Shown here: positions 2 through 9,779 of the stretch, piece after piece
Layout: each line of letters starts with the position of its first letter
How positions within the stretch are numbered: position 1 is the first letter of the stretch
NCBI GenBank assembly: GCA_030628225.1
Contig: DAOVRJ010000017.1
Coordinates: 1 to 17,012, forward strand
Direction: 5' to 3'
Length of the DNA stretch: 17,012 bases
Source: Candidatus Zixiibacteriota bacterium
Lineage (GTDB): Bacteria > SM23-81
Notes under the pieces: model-generated
Seen by the model: the letters and a program-made list of their open reading frames with translations, nothing else
Told to the model about the DNA's origin: nothing
Database searches by the model: none
Program-made: the position numbers and the translations under genes

Positions 2-151
2 AGGGTAGCAGGTATTCCTTTCAATTGGATCGTGAGCTATTACGGAGAGTTCCCGGCGGAAGTATCCTACAGTGGCCCCAGGGCACGCTGGCTGCAGCGA
101 GGGGGAGACATCCCCCTTCCAACCCCAACCCAACCAGGGTTTAGGGGTTAG
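2..151 (+). CDS. Possible C-terminal end of a gene entering from the left edge
   Basis: Plus-strand frame 2 is open from the left edge to a TAG at 149-151, giving about 49 residues. The translation looks protein-like (AGIPFNWIVSYYGEF, then YSGPRARWLQRGGDIP), with clustered aromatic residues and mixed charge. Its last dozen residues run into the heptamer-rich noncoding DNA. I recognise no family. Plus-strand frame 1 is also open over this stretch, so chance is a real alternative. A 7-bp stem with a 4-nt loop (100-117, AGGGGGA/TCCCCCT) lies inside the frame. If the gene is real, it is the only plus-strand gene here and converges on hutH. Confidence 0.25.
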   Translation, partial: RVAGIPFNWIVSYYGEFPAEVSYSGPRARWLQRGGDIPLPTPTQPGFRG

Positions 152-172
152 GTGTTTAGGGGTTAGGGAAAA
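138..172 (+). repeat. G-rich telomere-like heptamers (left arm of a large imperfect inverted repeat)
   Basis: The plus strand carries successive units GGGTTTA, GGGGTTA, GGTGTTTA and GGGGTTA, which are 7-mers with one 8-mer. They are roughly complementary to the C-rich units at 236-415. A further three G-runs lie at 219-233 (GGGGG CA GGG TA GGG). Together with the array to the right they form a long, imperfect inverted repeat around an AT-rich spacer (173-218). No gene is visible here. Confidence 0.7.
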
Positions 173-235
173 GAATAGAACCAAAAAACTCATGTTATCT
201 CAACAAGTTGAAAAGAATGGGGGCAGGGTAGGGTC

Positions 236-415
236 CCTAACCCCTGATCCCTAATCCCTATCTTTCCGGGGTCACTAACCCCTAACCCCTGATCCCTAAT
301 CCCTATCTTTCCGGGTTCACTAACCCCTAACCCCTGATCCCTAATCCCTATCTTTCCGGGTTCACTAACCCCTAATCCCCAACCCCTAACCCCTGTCTTT
401 CCGGGGTCTCTGATC
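236..415. repeat. Four copies of a 45-bp tandem repeat built from C-rich heptamers
   Basis: Copies lie at 236-280, 281-325, 326-370 and 371-415. Copies 2 and 3 are identical, copy 1 differs from them by one base, and copy 4 has diverged but keeps the register. The word TCTTTCCGGG recurs at 261, 306, 351 and 396, exactly 45 bp apart. Inside each good copy the sequence is made of 7-mers of the type CTAACCC, CTGATCC and CTAATCC. The minus strand has four G-runs per copy (for example across 235-258) separated by 3-4 nt loops, which fits the canonical G-quadruplex pattern. The array lies just downstream of the hutH stop and would be in its transcript unless transcription ends first. Confidence 0.92.
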
Positions 416-3753: not shown

Positions 3754-5796
3754 CTACTTGAATGTGTTCTTCAATTTACCTTTCAGCGGCAACAGCTCCC
3801 GGTCGAACTCTCCCACTCTGGCCGATTCCGCCGATTTGTTGTCTGCGGCGTCAACCGCCTTGAGCAGATAAAAGAAATTGACCACTGGGCTAAAGGAGAC
3901 GCTGCTGTCGGGAAAGTCGATGCCGGAAGTCGACCCGAGGGACTCCGAGACCGTGGGCACGAAATCTGCCATCTGGCCCCGATAGACGACATAGTATGGG
4001 ACCGCTTCCGGCCCTCCTGCTGTGTCGGTTGTCACCGCCGACCATTGGAGGAGGAGCACATCCCCGGCCAGAGAAACCGTCAGGTCCGTCACCGCCTCGG
4101 GCGGTGTCGAATCCAGGACGGACAGGTTCTGGTAATAGTTGAACGTGCCGTCATAATTTCCGATGGCCAGATCCAGATCGCCGTCGTCATCCAGATCGCC
4201 AAACGCCGGAGCAGCATTCTGTCCGACGGTGATGCCGGCGACCACAGAGGGGTTTTCCACCCAGGTGCCGCCGACGTTCTCGAAGAATTGGATCTCGTGA
4301 AAAAGATCGCCGGTGATGATGTCCATATCTCCGTCATCGTCGAGGTCGCCGACGGTGGGAACACAATGGCTGCCGACATCGATCCCACCGAAGAATCCCG
4401 GTACCTCGACCCAGGCGGCGGAATCGCTGGTGCCTTCATTCTGAAAGTAAAACAGGTTGCCGTCCTCGTTGCCGGCCACGATGTCCAGGTCTCCGTCGAT
4501 GTCCATATCGACCAATCTTGGCACGGAGGAGTAGCCCAGATCGATGCCGGCGAAAACCGAGCTCTCGTAGTTGAAGCTGGTGCCTGTGTTTCTGTGAAAG
4601 AACAGCTGACCGTTCATGTCGCCGGCCACCGCATCTGCCAGCCCATCCCCATCCGTATCGCCGGTGGTGATAGCAGAGTAGATGGAATGATCGATAGCAG
4701 CAAATCGGTCATGATCAGGCTCCCAGGCCGGCGCCGATGGCAAGCCAACGTTTTCATAATACTTGATATCGCCCAGCTGGCTGCCGCTGACCAGGTCCAG
4801 GTCGCCGTCGTCATCGAAATCGAACAGAAACGGTGAGCTGGCCCCGCCCACATCCAGCACGCCGCCAAACAGACTGCTGTTGGCCGTCCAGATGGGGGAG
4901 GAAAGGCTGCCGGTATTCACATAATAGTTCAAGGGCCCGGCAGCGGTGCCGTAGATCAGGTCCTTTTTGCCGTCTCCGGACAGATCGACTAGGCAGGGCG
5001 AGTTCCAGTAGGTCGTCTGGGCCAGGTCGGCGAAAATGGAATTGGCCGACTGCCACAGCCAGCTGGTGGAGTCTCCAACGTTGCGATAGTAATAGAACCC
5101 GGTCGCATCGCGGCCGACCAACAGATCGAAATCAGCATCGTTGTCCAGATCGGCGAACCAGGGGTAAGCGTATAATCCAACATCATACCAGGTTTGGGAT
5201 TGCGCTTCGAGAAAGACAGCCGAATCGGGTGTGCCGCTGTTGGGATAGAACTTCAGTTGACCGTCCTCGCTGAGCCCGACCAGCAGATCATAATCACCGT
5301 CGGCGTCAAGATCGGCAAAGGTGGGCACCGGGTTGGAGCCGACGGACAATCCGTCGAAGAATCCCTCGATCTCATTAAATTCGGGTTGCGTGGAATCGCC
5401 CACATTCTCGAAGAAATGCAGGCCGGTGTAGCCTCCGGTGATCAGATCCAGGTCGCCGTCGTCGTCCAGGTCGACACAGACGCCCATCTCGGCGTCCAGG
5501 GCGGAGACGGGAGCGAAGAGATCCGGGCCGGCCTGAAATGCGGGCGTGGTTGGAGTGCCGCTATTCTCAAAATAGAGAGGAGCCTGGTCGATACTGCCCA
5601 GGATCAGGTCGTGGTCGCCATCGGCATCCAGATCGCCGAAGCGGGGCTGGGAGAAGGACACCGAGGGAACCCCGCTGGGGTTGAAGATCAGGTCGTTCTG
5701 CTGCCAGGGCTGGGCAGAGGTCCCGGAGGTGAGGGGAAAAGAGAGAGATAGAGCGCTCAGAAGGCATAAAGCGGGTTTAGGGAATATTTTGCTCAT
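3754..5796 (-). CDS. Secreted FG-GAP/VCBS-repeat protein with a fibronectin type III domain
   Basis: A 680-residue exported protein. It has a signal peptide (MSKIFPKPALCLLSALSLSF, cleavage probably near the TSAQ at about 28). Ten repeats of about 48 residues follow, each with a calcium-binding-like D-x-D-x-D-G-D-x-D-L core (for example DLDADGDHDLILG) and a Y-F-E-N-x-G element. These are FG-GAP/VCBS repeats, which fold as beta-propeller blades. One core is degenerate (DLSGDGKKDL). A fibronectin type III domain covers about 562-662, starting DSTPPEAVTDL. Such proteins sit on the surface or are secreted, often in adhesion; the ligand is unknown. AAGGTGA lies 6 nt before the ATG. The frame stops at TAG, but a tail-like sequence continues in frame to 3661, so the annotated end may be a mutation. 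The vapC end lies 57 bp upstream; shared transcription is possible. Confidence 0.88.
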   Translation of the reverse strand: MSKIFPKPALCLLSALSLSFPLTSGTSAQPWQQNDLIFNPSGVPSVSFSQPRFGDLDADGDHDLILGSIDQAPLYFENSGTPTTPAFQAGPDLFAPVSALDAEMGVCVDLDDDGDLDLITGGYTGLHFFENVGDSTQPEFNEIEGFFDGLSVGSNPVPTFADLDADGDYDLLVGLSEDGQLKFYPNSGTPDSAVFLEAQSQTWYDVGLYAYPWFADLDNDADFDLLVGRDATGFYYYRNVGDSTSWLWQSANSIFADLAQTTYWNSPCLVDLSGDGKKDLIYGTAAGPLNYYVNTGSLSSPIWTANSSLFGGVLDVGGASSPFLFDFDDDGDLDLVSGSQLGDIKYYENVGLPSAPAWEPDHDRFAAIDHSIYSAITTGDTDGDGLADAVAGDMNGQLFFHRNTGTSFNYESSVFAGIDLGYSSVPRLVDMDIDGDLDIVAGNEDGNLFYFQNEGTSDSAAWVEVPGFFGGIDVGSHCVPTVGDLDDDGDMDIITGDLFHEIQFFENVGGTWVENPSVVAGITVGQNAAPAFGDLDDDGDLDLAIGNYDGTFNYYQNLSVLDSTPPEAVTDLTVSLAGDVLLLQWSAVTTDTAGGPEAVPYYVVYRGQMADFVPTVSESLGSTSGIDFPDSSVSFSPVVNFFYLLKAVDAADNKSAESARVGEFDRELLPLKGKLKNTFK

Positions 5797-5853
5797 ATGG
5801 ATTCACCTTCGATCTTTTTACGGACGACAATATCCTCATGGAACGGTAGACAG

Positions 5854-6229
5854 TTACTTTCTGGCCACATAGCGCACACCTTTTATTCCTTTGAAATCCG
5901 CGTCCTGTGTCCACAGGGTGGCGCCGTAGGCCCTGGCTGTGGCCAGCATGATGCTTGTCGGCCAGGGGAAGTTTCTCCTGCAGGCTGATCCTGGCGGCGC
6001 TGAGGGCCACAGAGGAAGTCAGCTCGATCACCCGGCCCTGCTGCATGGTGGCAATGGCCTGAAGGGCCCAGCTTTCTTCCCGTTGTTGGAGAACGCGCCT
6101 GAAGACCTCATATAAGCTCAAAGTTGGGATAAGAAGCTTTGCGGTTTTTTCGATGGCCGGGGCGAAGAAGCTCGCGTTGGGACCGTCGGCGAAATACTCC
6201 AGCCAGCCGGATGAATCGACGATGTTCAT
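5854..6229 (-). pseudogene. vapC: VapC-type PIN-domain toxin, frameshifted
   Basis: The frame from 6229 encodes a PIN-domain ribonuclease toxin: MNIVDSSGWLEYF with Asp5, then LSLYEVFRR with Glu41, then LPLAD with Asp91. Immediately after Asp91 the frame is lost. Skipping one base in the TT at 5955-5956 restores SIMLATARAYGATLW, then TQDADF with the fourth acidic site (Asp109/Asp111), and a natural stop TAA at 5854-5856. The repaired protein is 124 residues, usual for VapC. As it stands, the shifted frame runs on to about 150 residues with an unrelated tail, so the nuclease site is incomplete. It starts inside the antitoxin stop (ATGA overlap), typical of vapBC operons. The indel may be a real inactivation or an assembly/sequencing error. 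Confidence 0.88.
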
Positions 6230-6432
6230 TCCCGGTTCTCCTCCCGTGGCACGCTGGTGTCGATTCCCTGTAGATAGCCACGCAGAGTGCGGATCGGCTG
6301 TAAGGGTATGAGCTCGATCCGCCCATCGTAGACCATGGCCTGTACTTTTTGTCCGGGCCGCAGGCCCAGTTTTTCGCGGACATCTTTTGGGATCACCACT
6401 TGGTATTTCGTTGATATGGTCACGGTAGCCAT
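6226..6432 (-). CDS. vapB: AbrB/SpoVT-type antitoxin VapB
   Basis: A 68-residue protein with an N-terminal swapped-hairpin AbrB DNA-binding domain: ISTKYQVVIPKDVREKLGL, then PGQKVQAMVYDGRIELIPL. The C-terminal part (RGYLQGIDTSVPREENRE) is the usual disordered, acidic toxin-binding tail. It would neutralise the PIN-domain toxin encoded next and, with it, repress the operon. GAGGT lies 6 nt before the ATG. Its TGA overlaps the toxin ATG by four bases, so the two are translationally coupled. The toxin frame is broken downstream, but the antitoxin itself looks intact. Confidence 0.92.
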   Translation of the reverse strand: MATVTISTKYQVVIPKDVREKLGLRPGQKVQAMVYDGRIELIPLQPIRTLRGYLQGIDTSVPREENRE

Positions 6433-6518: not shown

Positions 6519-6556
6519 AAAAACCTCCCGGTATTTTCAAATCGCGGGAGGTTTTT
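6519..6556. terminator. Bidirectional intrinsic terminator
   Basis: AAAAACCTCCCG (6519-6530) and CGGGAGGTTTTT (6545-6556) are perfect 12-bp inverted repeats around a 14-nt loop, with a run of T at the stem base on either strand. It would stop minus-strand transcription from the YbaK-like gene before the vapBC promoter region. Confidence 0.9.
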
Positions 6557-6584
6557 GAGTAAAAGAACTCGAAGCTCGATACTC

Positions 6585-6709
6585 GGTTGGCGGTATCGAA
6601 GGGCGTTACGGTTTTCGGTTGTCGAAGTTCGTCTGTCGTCGGCCCGTCCTCAGGCAGTTACGATTCACGAATCTCGAGTCTCGATTCCCGATACCCGGAT
6701 CCCGGCTCT
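6585..6709. repeat. Degenerate heptad element A, directly after the YbaK-like gene
   Basis: CG dinucleotides fall exactly 7 bp apart in two arrays: 6609, 6616, 6623, 6630 and 6637 in a G-rich left half, and 6661, 6668, 6675, 6682, 6689, 6696 and 6703 in a C-rich right half. Unit sequences vary (for example CGGTTTT versus CGAAGTT on the left, TCGAGTC versus CCGGATC on the right) while the register stays fixed. The two halves are roughly complementary and flank a 17-nt spacer. The 17-mer CGAATCTCGAGTCTCGA (6668-6684) is repeated exactly at 7534-7550 in element B. Confidence 0.85.
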
Positions 6710-6724
6710 TCCACGAACACGTAT

Positions 6725-7192
6725 TTATTCCTTCTGCCCAAAATCTGCCACCACAGGTTCCACCAGCCGCTGGAAATCGGCATAGTGCAGCCGGATGAGC
6801 TCCGTGTGCGAGCCGGCGTTGAAGGCGATCTCATCATCATCGGGCAGGGGGTTGGCCACGTAGACAGCCATGTCGTAGAGGTTCCCGAAGGGCGGCATGG
6901 CCCCGATCTCGCACTCCGGGAACAGCCGCTGGAACTCATCCTCCGAGGCCAGCTCCACCTTCTTGGCTCCGGTCAGCTTCTTGAGACCCTTGAAGTCGAC
7001 CCGGTAAGAGGCCGGCAGAACGGCCATTGCCATGGTGCCGTCGAGCTTGACCATGACGGTCTTGGCCAGCTCTTTGCCGGGGATATGCGCCGAGGCGGCG
7101 ATCTCCTGGGCGGTGAAGGCCGTCGAGTGCTTGACCATGACATACTTGACCTTGTGGTTGTCGAGGAACTGGGCGACTTTCTTGGCGGGCAT
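6725..7192 (-). CDS. YbaK/EbsC-family aminoacyl-tRNA deacylase
   Basis: A 155-residue cytosolic protein of the YbaK/ProXp/EbsC editing family, which hydrolyses mischarged aminoacyl-tRNAs (for YbaK, Cys-tRNAPro). Family features are the N-terminal VAQFLDNHKVKYVMVKHS, TAQEIAASAHIPGKELAKTV, the strand MAVLPASYRVDF, and the substrate-pocket loop CEIGAMPPFGNLY followed by FNAGSHTELIRLHYADF. Which tRNA it edits cannot be told from sequence alone. An upstream ATG at 7228 extends the frame by 12 codons. I prefer 7192 because AGGAGG lies 5 nt before it and the conserved domain begins there. The stop is TAA, followed at once by heptad element A and then a strong terminator, so it is probably transcribed alone. 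Confidence 0.87.
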   Translation of the reverse strand: MPAKKVAQFLDNHKVKYVMVKHSTAFTAQEIAASAHIPGKELAKTVMVKLDGTMAMAVLPASYRVDFKGLKKLTGAKKVELASEDEFQRLFPECEIGAMPPFGNLYDMAVYVANPLPDDDEIAFNAGSHTELIRLHYADFQRLVEPVVADFGQKE

Positions 7193-7220
7193 GATGGCCT
7201 CCTTTTTGAGTGATAGAAAA

Positions 7221-7260
7221 GGGTTCAAGGGGTCGAGGATTCAAGGATTCGAGGGGTAGG
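7221..7260. repeat. Five exact-register octamers upstream of the YbaK-like gene
   Basis: Read in eights from 7221 the plus strand gives GGGTTCAA and GGGGTCGA, then GGATTCAA and GGATTCGA, then GGGGTAGG. All five share the frame GG-N-N-T and no base is lost between them. They occupy the stretch between the chosen start and a possible promoter. The minus strand shares GAATCCTCGA with the octamer array at 3610-3641. Confidence 0.8.
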
Positions 7261-7324
7261 AGAGGCGTGATGCGTGAGAGGAGTATCTAGCGCTTGACCC
7301 CAAAGCGAGGCAGCCCCGGTATCC

Positions 7325-7355
7325 ATAATGAGCAAGATAAAATGGAAATTGTCAA
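7325..7355 (-). promoter_or_regulatory. Possible promoter for the YbaK-like gene
   Basis: The minus strand has a perfect TTGACA (7350-7355) preceded by an A-rich tract, and CATTAT (7325-7330) 19 bp further on. The -10 match is only 4 of 6 and the spacing is long. The same TTGACAA after an A-tract recurs upstream of the DUF5916 gene, which supports it slightly. Confidence 0.35.
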
Positions 7356-7387
7356 GAGGTTTTTTTAGGGGGATGGCAATTAATAGG

Positions 7388-7603
7388 GGATCGGAGATCG
7401 AATGGGGGATTGGTGGTGGGTTGGATGATCGTTAGTCGGTTCTCGGTTGGCAGGTCGACGGTCGTTACGGCTGTCAGAAGTCGGAGTTCGGTTGTCTTGA
7501 GCCTCTTCCAGCTTCTAGTGTTTTCCCGAGTTTCGAATCTCGAGTCTCGAAAGCCGAGCTTCGAGCTCCTTACCGATCCCCGGTCACCGAACCTCGATCC
7601 CCA
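7388..7603. repeat. Degenerate heptad element B, directly after the DUF5916 gene
   Basis: This is the same design as element A. CG dinucleotides lie 7 bp apart at 7527, 7534, 7541, 7548, 7555 and 7562, then resume at 7574, 7581, 7588 and 7595 after a 12-bp step. The G-rich left half has CG at 7392 and 7399, at 7430, 7437 and 7444, and at 7468, 7482 and 7489 (with CA in register at 7475). Shared words with element A include CTCGGTTGGC, CGTTACGG and the 17-mer CGAATCTCGAGTCTCGA. The left half is G-rich, the right half C-rich, with a spacer near 7500-7520. The rest of the 7229-7604 gap holds the octamers and the possible promoter. Confidence 0.85.
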
Positions 7604-7604
7604 T

Positions 7605-9779
7605 CTATATTCCCATAAAAAGACTGATCTTCATCAGTGCCCTCTGGGTCGTCTCGCGCTGGTGATTGAGATCATCCCATCCTTCATCGTGATTGAAGGC
7701 GAGGTACAGGGTGTTCCTTCGGGTGAGCTCCCAGGCCAACAGGAGGTTGATATCCTTGAGCAGATCCCAACCAGAGGTGTCGTTTGTTTGCAGAAAGGTC
7801 CTCAGGTAGATATCTTGGGTCACATCGAGACGGGTCTTGAGGATGCTAACCCATTGGTCGGGCCAGCCGATCTGGTTCTGATGGCCGGCGAAGGCCACCT
7901 TGTTGGTGAACAGATCGAGGGAGAGACGTCCGAAAAGCTTACATCGCAGCCAGGCCTCCATGATGTCCGTTGTGGCCCCGAAAGTCCGGCCTCTTTTTAT
8001 GCGCAACCCCGCGTTCTCGAAACTGGCGTAATTATAGATCAGCGAGACATAGGCCTGCCAGTTGTCATAGGTCTCATCTGCCACCCTCTCCCGTGACCAC
8101 TGCCCGTCGAAGCCGTTGGCGAACCAGCAGCCCAGAAATTTATAGAAAATGCTGATGTTCTCTCGAAAATACTGGAAGTTCAGCTTGCCACTGTCCTTTT
8201 CTTCATAGGAGCCGAAGAAGGAGTTGAAATGCGCATCGTGAAGGTGCAGAGACGGCGTGGGCCTCATATAAGTGATGACGCCGTGGAAGCCCCTGACGTC
8301 GTTGCGGCCGCCAAAGTAGCCGGTGTTCAGATGAAAATCCGGATCCCGATCGACGTAGGTCAAATAGCCCTCGAAATGTTGACTGTTGTGGCTTAGGTCC
8401 ACTCTCTTTTCCCAACCTTGTGTCTTCTCTAAGTTGAGAATCTCGTCTTTCTCCACCGAAAGGCTGGCCTGTGTGTTCAGGATGAAGCCCAGGGGCAAAG
8501 TCAATCCGGCATCCAGACCGGCTGCCCGGCTGTAACCCGTCCCATTGGCCCAGTTCACTCCCGTGAGGCCGAGGAAGGAGGAGCCCAGGATGTTCCCCTT
8601 CAGCCGGGCAGCCAAGAAATTGGCCTCTTGGTCTCGAAAGGATTCAGGGTCGCCCTCTTCCCCGGGGGTTTGCGCGTCCACGATGGCCAGGTTGAACCGG
8701 TGAACTTTTCCGGTCAGCTTCCCCCCGGCAGTGATCTCGCCGATGCGGCGGGAATAGAACAGGGTGGTGGCCGTGCCGAACAGCTCGCACCCCTCCAGAA
8801 AGAAGGGCCGCTTTTCGGGCAGGCGGAGCTCCTCGGTGGACAGGTTGATCTGGTCCGGGTCGGCCTCGATCTGGGCGAAATCCGGGTTGAGGGTCAGATT
8901 TGCGCAGAATGTGGAGGTGAGATTGTACTTCAGATCAAGCCCTGCGTCGCCGGTGAGCTTCTCATCGGGATTCTGGCTCCTTCGCAGGCTGGTGAAGGGC
9001 ATGACCTCCAGGGCCCGCCCCTTTTTCAGATCCCGCAATCCCACCAGATGGCCATAATCGGACACCCGGAAGAAGTGCTTTGCCAGCTGCCAGAGATGAT
9101 CTTGCCCTGTCCGTCTGTGCATGCGCATGAAGTTGATGCCCCAGATCTGCTCCTTTCGGGCATCGAAAGGCAGATTGAAGAAAGGAATGGCCAGCTCGGC
9201 ACACCAACCCCATGATGTGATCCTCGTTTTCACATGCCAGTCGCCGTCCCAGATAGTCTCCGCGGTGGCGCCATTGCCCGTGCAGCGGCCGTCCGTCTGG
9301 GTGCCCAGGGGATTGGTCAGAAAAAATGTGCAGGACTGGTGGTCGTGGAAGGAGTCGATGAAGATCTCGATGGCGTCGTCGTTCCACAGCTCGTCGTCCC
9401 GCTGGGTCATGTTGGCCTCGATCCGCCCTGGCTGGCTGTCGTAACAGCGGATGCCCAGGTACAGATTCTCAGCATCGTACAGGACGATCACGACCGTCGA
9501 TTCCGAGGGCTGAGCCCCATAGTTGGGCTTGCTCTGCAGAAAAGAGGTGGTCGTCTCACCCCGCTGCCAGGCGGGCTCATCCAGGAAACCGTCGATGTCG
9601 ATCTCGGAGGAGGTGCGAACGGCTCGAATTTCCTTCATGCCACCGCCCTCCACAGGCGACAGCGGACTTTGTTCGCTCTCGGAATGTCCTACCCCGGCCC
9701 AGAGAGGGATTGTCAGCAGGGCGAATATGGCGACGATCAGCGAATGGAATCGTCTCTTGGAGAGGGTCTTCGATGCCAT
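7605..9779 (-). CDS. CBM9-like/DUF5916 outer-membrane beta-barrel protein
   Basis: A 724-residue exported protein. A signal peptide (basic MASKTLSKRR, then the core LIVAIFALLTIPLW) is followed by a carbohydrate-binding family 9-like domain at about 48-225 (IDGFLDEPAWQRGE, LYLGIRCYDSQPGRI, DDAIEIFIDSFHD, WCAELAIPFFNL). A DUF5916 region follows: NLTLNPDFAQIEADPDQINL and RLPEKRPFFLEGCELF (about 295-335) are its signature. The remainder alternates polar and aromatic residues as in an outer-membrane beta-barrel. Such proteins are common in FCB and Gemmatimonadota genomes; a role in glycan binding or uptake is inferred from the CBM9 fold, not shown. The ribosome-binding site is weak (AGAGAG upstream of the ATG). 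The stop is TAG, directly followed by heptad element B. Confidence 0.88.
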   Translation of the reverse strand: MASKTLSKRRFHSLIVAIFALLTIPLWAGVGHSESEQSPLSPVEGGGMKEIRAVRTSSEIDIDGFLDEPAWQRGETTTSFLQSKPNYGAQPSESTVVIVLYDAENLYLGIRCYDSQPGRIEANMTQRDDELWNDDAIEIFIDSFHDHQSCTFFLTNPLGTQTDGRCTGNGATAETIWDGDWHVKTRITSWGWCAELAIPFFNLPFDARKEQIWGINFMRMHRRTGQDHLWQLAKHFFRVSDYGHLVGLRDLKKGRALEVMPFTSLRRSQNPDEKLTGDAGLDLKYNLTSTFCANLTLNPDFAQIEADPDQINLSTEELRLPEKRPFFLEGCELFGTATTLFYSRRIGEITAGGKLTGKVHRFNLAIVDAQTPGEEGDPESFRDQEANFLAARLKGNILGSSFLGLTGVNWANGTGYSRAAGLDAGLTLPLGFILNTQASLSVEKDEILNLEKTQGWEKRVDLSHNSQHFEGYLTYVDRDPDFHLNTGYFGGRNDVRGFHGVITYMRPTPSLHLHDAHFNSFFGSYEEKDSGKLNFQYFRENISIFYKFLGCWFANGFDGQWSRERVADETYDNWQAYVSLIYNYASFENAGLRIKRGRTFGATTDIMEAWLRCKLFGRLSLDLFTNKVAFAGHQNQIGWPDQWVSILKTRLDVTQDIYLRTFLQTNDTSGWDLLKDINLLLAWELTRRNTLYLAFNHDEGWDDLNHQRETTQRALMKISLFMGI

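Follow-up and report, generated by a model that had tools for sequence, protein, structure and literature searches.

In this work, we report that two noncoding elements, A and B, found in a 17,012-nucleotide stretch of a Candidatus Zixiibacteriota draft genome (the window), are diverged members of an intergenic repeat family dispersed in a family-level bacterial lineage. We consider it moderately probable that expansion and decay of 7-bp units gave rise to ERIC- or MITE-like dispersed repeats, and that the A/B family retained its register because each arm is constrained in its own DNA sequence, perhaps by protein binding, rather than by pairing with the other arm.

Among bacterial repeats with units of 5-11 nt, heptanucleotides form the commonest class, and the 7-nt contact of the polymerase has been suggested as the reason (cited in PMC4692102 and PMC4679880), although their cause is not agreed. 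Known heptads include GGGAATC of Xanthomonas and GGGGA(C/T)T of Nostoc (PMC4692102), and TAACTGA of Beggiatoaceae (PMC4679880). The lineage described here carries very many heptad arrays in all states of decay, in two genera and at some orthologous sites, so that slippage, spread and constraint become separable.

Elements A and B and the family of 55-nt arms

The features of the window are listed in Table 1. As first noticed in the original prediction, CG falls on every seventh base at seven sites (six steps) in A, at positions 6661, 6668, 6675, 6682, 6689, 6696 and 6703, and at six and then four sites in B. This phasing is not due to chance: Markov shuffles matched the observed run in 2 of 20,000 cases with A and in 5 of 20,000 with B. 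No CG run longer than two was found in A or B at spacings 4-6 and 8-11. The left half of A, which the original prediction missed, is also phased, with the same CG spacing as the consensus that 40 sister-genus arms give. The two copies of the 17-bp core, CGAATCTCGAGTCTCGA, are identical, as had been claimed; A and B align at ~70% over 109-115 bp (blastn; B part 7436-7550), and adjacent heptad units within them are ~52% identical. The division into a G-rich left and a C-rich right part was also borne out, with GC skews of +0.29/-0.27 in A and +0.50/-0.26 in B, as was the location of each element just downstream of a minus-strand stop codon: the gap to the stop is ~16 bp for A (stop at 6725) and ~4 bp for B (stop at 7605). 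On its left side, A is bounded by a terminator-like hairpin.

Table 1. Features of the window (positions in nucleotides from its first letter)
Feature	Positions	Strand	Description
Third heptad element, other unit family	136-394		GGGTTAG arm, 66-nt loop, four CCCTAAC/CCCTGAT blocks
Terminator-like hairpin, bidirectional	6519-6556		Inverted repeat with A-run and T-run
Element A, left arm	6584-6638	+	55-nt A/B-family arm; CG spacing 7,6,7,5,7,7,7,7; G-rich
Element A, right half	6655-6708	-	C-rich heptads; seven CGs 7 bp apart, 6661-6703; 17-bp core
Aminoacyl-tRNA editing domain gene (PF04073)	6725-7213	-	Pfam E 5.8e-28 and ORF; A follows its stop codon
Element B, left half	7383-7496	+	G-rich heptads, lag-7 segment; A-like arm at ~7444-7496
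Element B, right half	7527-7600	-	C-rich heptads; CGs at 7527-7562 and 7574-7595; 17-bp core
DUF5916/CBM9-like gene	7605-9779	-	Pfam and ORF; B follows its stop codon

Three other features of the window were observed. The third heptad element has a telomere-like unit and the same G-first polarity as A and B, and related copies occur at at least four other loci of the genome. A heptad-like stretch, TTCAAGGGGTCGAGGATTCAAGGATTCGAGG, is found at 7225-7265, upstream of the tRNA-editing gene. To the left of A, a MazE-like antitoxin gene is paired with a PIN-domain gene (5777-6432); this pair is likely a toxin-antitoxin module.

The original prediction described two related copies. Their relationship stood, but the copies are far more than two and form a family common to this 2.34-Mb draft genome (G000) and its sister genus (G001). 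A blastn search with B gave 49 matches in G000; a search with A identified homologous copies in G001 and none in two further genomes, G002 and G003. Alignment of the left arms with the reverse-complemented right arms produced a 55-nt arm, CGTTTAGCGGTnTCGAAGnGCGTTACGTnnGTCGnnnGTCGAAGnTCG, in which TCG/CG recurs on a 7-bp register with the CG spacing 7-6-7-5-7-7-7-7, and the usual layout is two such arms, inverted, around an unconserved loop. A sequence-only model of the arm (R1) yields 44 matches in G000 and 91 in G001; G002 gives none, and G003 and three other searched genomes give weak matches only. The top match in G000 is the left arm of A (E 2.4e-14), A having been in the seed alignment; another lies inside the left half of B (7447-7496, E 1.5e-8).

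Among 26 elements examined in G001 (slightly fewer distinct ones, since some loci were counted twice), 23 have a plus-strand arm followed by a minus-strand arm, three have a single arm, and none has the reverse order. Elements of the family are located mostly between co-directional genes, often 20-80 bp from both, and their edges are fuzzy. The stretch between the arm matches is 26-43 nt long in 19 of 20 fully read elements and ~93 nt in the other one, and no common loop sequence was seen by eye among these 20.

The A/B elements thus resemble ERIC and MITE sequences: they measure ~130-150 bp, have two inverted arms, number in the tens in each genome, occupy spacers of co-directional genes and are common to related genera. 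No parent transposon emerged among the Y1 transposases of G000 and G001, and the fuzzy edges blur any target duplication. The loops of the A/B family are unrelated, which counts against plain MITE copying, as it does not predict unrelated loops unless the copies are old. A further difference from MITEs is the 7-bp CG register of the arms; the word "heptamer" was not found in a MITE review (PMC10969869).

Heptad arrays across the genome and their strand polarity

The original prediction proposed comparing the lag-7 periodicity of CG between intergenic and coding DNA. In ~509 kb of G000, part of which was picked for matching B, noncoding DNA contains 71 runs of at least four CGs at lag 7 and 12 such runs at the doubled lag 14, versus 0-6 at each remaining lag from 3 to 13; coding DNA has 7 lag-7 runs. 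The excess therefore extends to other intergenic DNA of the genome, just as further copies of the elements occur in G000 and in G001, so neither of the refuting outcomes named in the original prediction came about. Self-similar segments were also counted in 354 kb of contigs, mostly chosen by number and blind to the repeat, with ~10 chosen for matching B: 69 were found at lag 7, 5 at lag 8 and 21 at lag 9, and shuffled sequence had 0 at lag 7. The 7-bp period dominates over other periods, as in cyanobacterial STRR.

In total, the genome holds dozens of degenerate 7-bp arrays, almost confined to spacers between genes. They are composed of ~10 unit families, including TCGARTC, ATCCAGN, AATGMAA, TTCCGAG, CCCGAAT, CAGTNGG and CCCTAAY, plus a 9-bp unit, AACTCTCTC. 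The unit families adjoin in non-random preferred orders and in inverted pairs, and in two of them the loops are related between copies. An identical 27-nt junction of two unit families, AGTCTCAAGTCTCAGGTTTCCAGGATC, is common to both genera (L057:4030 and L222:14756). Arrays were found within 200 bp of the contig end at 18 of 73 sampled ends, versus ~0.035 arrays per 200 bp internally; this excess indicates that arrays break the assembly.

STRR had been named as the closest known comparison, which is right about the length of the units and their location between genes but not about the inverted arms and unit mosaics. More generally, the arrays share with the heptanucleotide repeats (STRR and those of Xanthomonas, Nostoc and Beggiatoaceae) a 7-bp unit, intergenic location, genome-wide scatter and the possibility of inverted pairs. 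They differ from these repeats in that the units are strongly degenerate, that ~10 families form ordered mosaics within one genome, and that the A/B family has retained an irregularly spaced arm of 55 nt.

The arrays also follow a strand polarity. In neighbouring pairs, the G-rich array comes first in 24 cases and second in 3 in G000, and in 9 and 0 cases, respectively, in loci from other phyla (29:5 and 13:0 at a looser threshold). For single arrays in G000, the G-richer strand points away from the closer gene in all 11 isolated cases and by 55 to 23 overall; the corresponding ratios are 54:18 for the other-phyla loci and 19:8 for a second set of 36. Array-free spacers have no such skew, which rules out spacer base composition as the cause. 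The other-phyla loci were picked by a CGARTYT array, several of them being from the same genomes, with crude ORFs as gene calls; the pooled p of 2e-6 is thus optimistic owing to these crude ORFs, the array-based choice of loci, shared genomes and related copies within a genome. In the heptanucleotide repeats of Xanthomonas and Nostoc, the G-rich strand likewise runs away from the nearer gene (PMC4692102), and the rule was earlier reported for G4-forming repeats in three genomes. The same polarity is seen in several phyla in arrays of TTTCGAG-type units, which lack enough adjacent Gs to form a quadruplex; this argues against quadruplexes as the general cause of the rule. The degenerate ordered mosaics, the unpaired conservation of the register and the recurrence of the polarity rule across phyla are new here.

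Probable expansion and decay, and retention of the register

According to the explanation that we favor, replication slippage would have duplicated 7-bp units in tandem, and the resulting arrays would have drifted by point mutation. Some composites may then have spread to many spacers by an ERIC- or MITE-like, transposition-like process, and the register of the A/B family would be retained because a putative protein contacts CG/TCG every 7 bp. The known excess of heptanucleotides, the 7-nt polymerase contact and the precedent of the omega protein described below point to slippage and decay as the source, and to protein contact as the probable basis of retention.

Repeat expansion followed by decay, one of the two possibilities raised originally, fits the data. 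Unit identity falls with distance from 0.71 one unit apart through 0.59, 0.49, 0.43 and 0.375 to 0.34 at eight (background 0.25), in a test that was run on segments picked for lag-7 identity and mixes within-array drift with module boundaries. Adjacent units are 71% identical in G000, rather than nearly identical, versus 90% in the other-phyla loci, and near-perfect arrays of these same units are present in other phyla. Exact four-unit CGARTYT arrays occur, among the matches listed, in Vibrio, Alcanivorax, Desulfonema, Planctomycetota, Chloroflexi, Acidobacteriota and others. Horizontal transfer was considered as a reason for this recurrence of unit families, but non-periodic linkers in common with G000 were seen in G001 only. 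The 5' and 3' ends of arrays do not differ in a way that would indicate directional growth. An inverted heptad pair, TTCTCAA/TTGAGAA, was also observed in an unrelated genome (G032, L269:9493-9577).

The content of individual spacers changes over time. Two orthologous spacers have an A-type element in G001 and different heptad families in G000, which at one of them retains what reads as the outermost part of a right arm of the A type, TTTCGATACCGACAAACGA. Similar replacement of unit families was found in further orthologous spacer pairs, so gain and loss recur in these spacers. In 11 comparisons, arrays did not co-occur at orthologous spacers significantly more often than the base rate predicts.

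These observations could also be explained by neutral heptanucleotide repeats only, with slippage and decay in tolerant spacers and a register that reflects shared descent within each array without selection. This reading, which is possible but doubtful in our view, agrees with the top rank of heptanucleotides among repeat classes in most bacterial genomes, with the proposed polymerase-contact slippage (PMC4692102, PMC4679880), with the decay of unit identity over distance and with the fast turnover by which orthologous spacers often contain different unit families in the two genera. However, it leaves unexplained the 55-nt arm with its irregular 7-6-7-5-7 spacing and ~130 matches in two genera, the ordered modules, and the preferential retention of CG at an orthologous site.

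This site is the tRNA-Cys/tRNA-Leu spacer, which carries an element in both G000 and G001, genomes whose orthologous proteins are commonly ~80% identical. Fifteen CGs coincide there versus 2.5 expected, an upper estimate since the pair was found via the arm model, and identity is 72% at CG positions versus 51% elsewhere (p 0.009). In a set of 40 arms, CG is retained in 28-38 at each CG column (18 at the outermost column), a retention partly open to ascertainment because the model that found the copies itself rewards CG. Most of the intervening bases are near random, those separating adjacent CGs of the inner and outer heptads often being 30-45% alike. Selection on spacing itself, the other possibility raised originally, is thus supported for the A/B family.

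A protein that reads consecutive 7-bp units has a precedent: the omega (RHH ParB) protein of plasmid pSM19035 binds contiguous 7-bp units, direct or inverted (PMC9499535). In contrast to its WATCACW operator/parS heptads, which are plasmid partition sites overlapping promoters, A and B are dispersed chromosomal repeats with TCG-centred units of unrelated sequence, and the binding protein is putative. A specific proposal, that tens of intergenic sites are read by a chromosomal protein through CG/TCG contacts spaced 7 bp apart on pairs of inverted arms, with the register rather than the sequence as the conserved signal, seems rather unlikely to us.

Arm pairing and transposases

The original prediction also suggested a long imperfect hairpin and selection on RNA structure. 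Pairing of the G-rich and C-rich halves into a selected stem, which as a structured RNA or cruciform would serve, for example, 3'UTR mRNA stability or termination, would suit the inverted layout with the G-rich arm first and the location after stop codons, and for some elements the fold does surpass that of shuffles, with z -3.5 in one case. Nevertheless, A and B fold little above shuffles as RNA (z -1.7 and -1.2; -0.2 for A as DNA), and an Rfam scan matched no known RNA family. In an arm-swap test within the A/B family, own arms were 0.551 identical versus 0.574 for swapped ones (permutation p 0.994 for a better match of own arms), and they were likewise no better in duplex energy. Since own arms are no more complementary than swapped ones, a selected hairpin is not supported, and we consider this alternative improbable. 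Covariation within elements, as expected of a structured RNA, is absent inside the family; an own-pair test on mixed families gave a weak p of 0.04, which largely reflects family membership. Perfect long palindromes are unstable in bacteria, and the somewhat lower likeness of own arms fits this instability. Conservation tracks the own DNA sequence of each arm, in line with the favored constraint on separate arms.

Mobilization by a Y1 transposase, as in REP/RAYT or IS200-driven elements, is very improbable: no partner was found among the Y1 (IS200-type) transposases of G000 and G001, which are ordinary in number (4 and 3) and not regularly flanked by arrays, the other three genes of G000 and all three of G001 being without two-sided arrays. 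The one of seven with heptads of the AATGAAA type on both sides, in contig C221 of G000 (L433, ~1560-2180), belongs to an IS200-type element with its own hairpin ends, CCCCCGCTCGTGAGCGGGGG, apparently inserted inside a heptad array.
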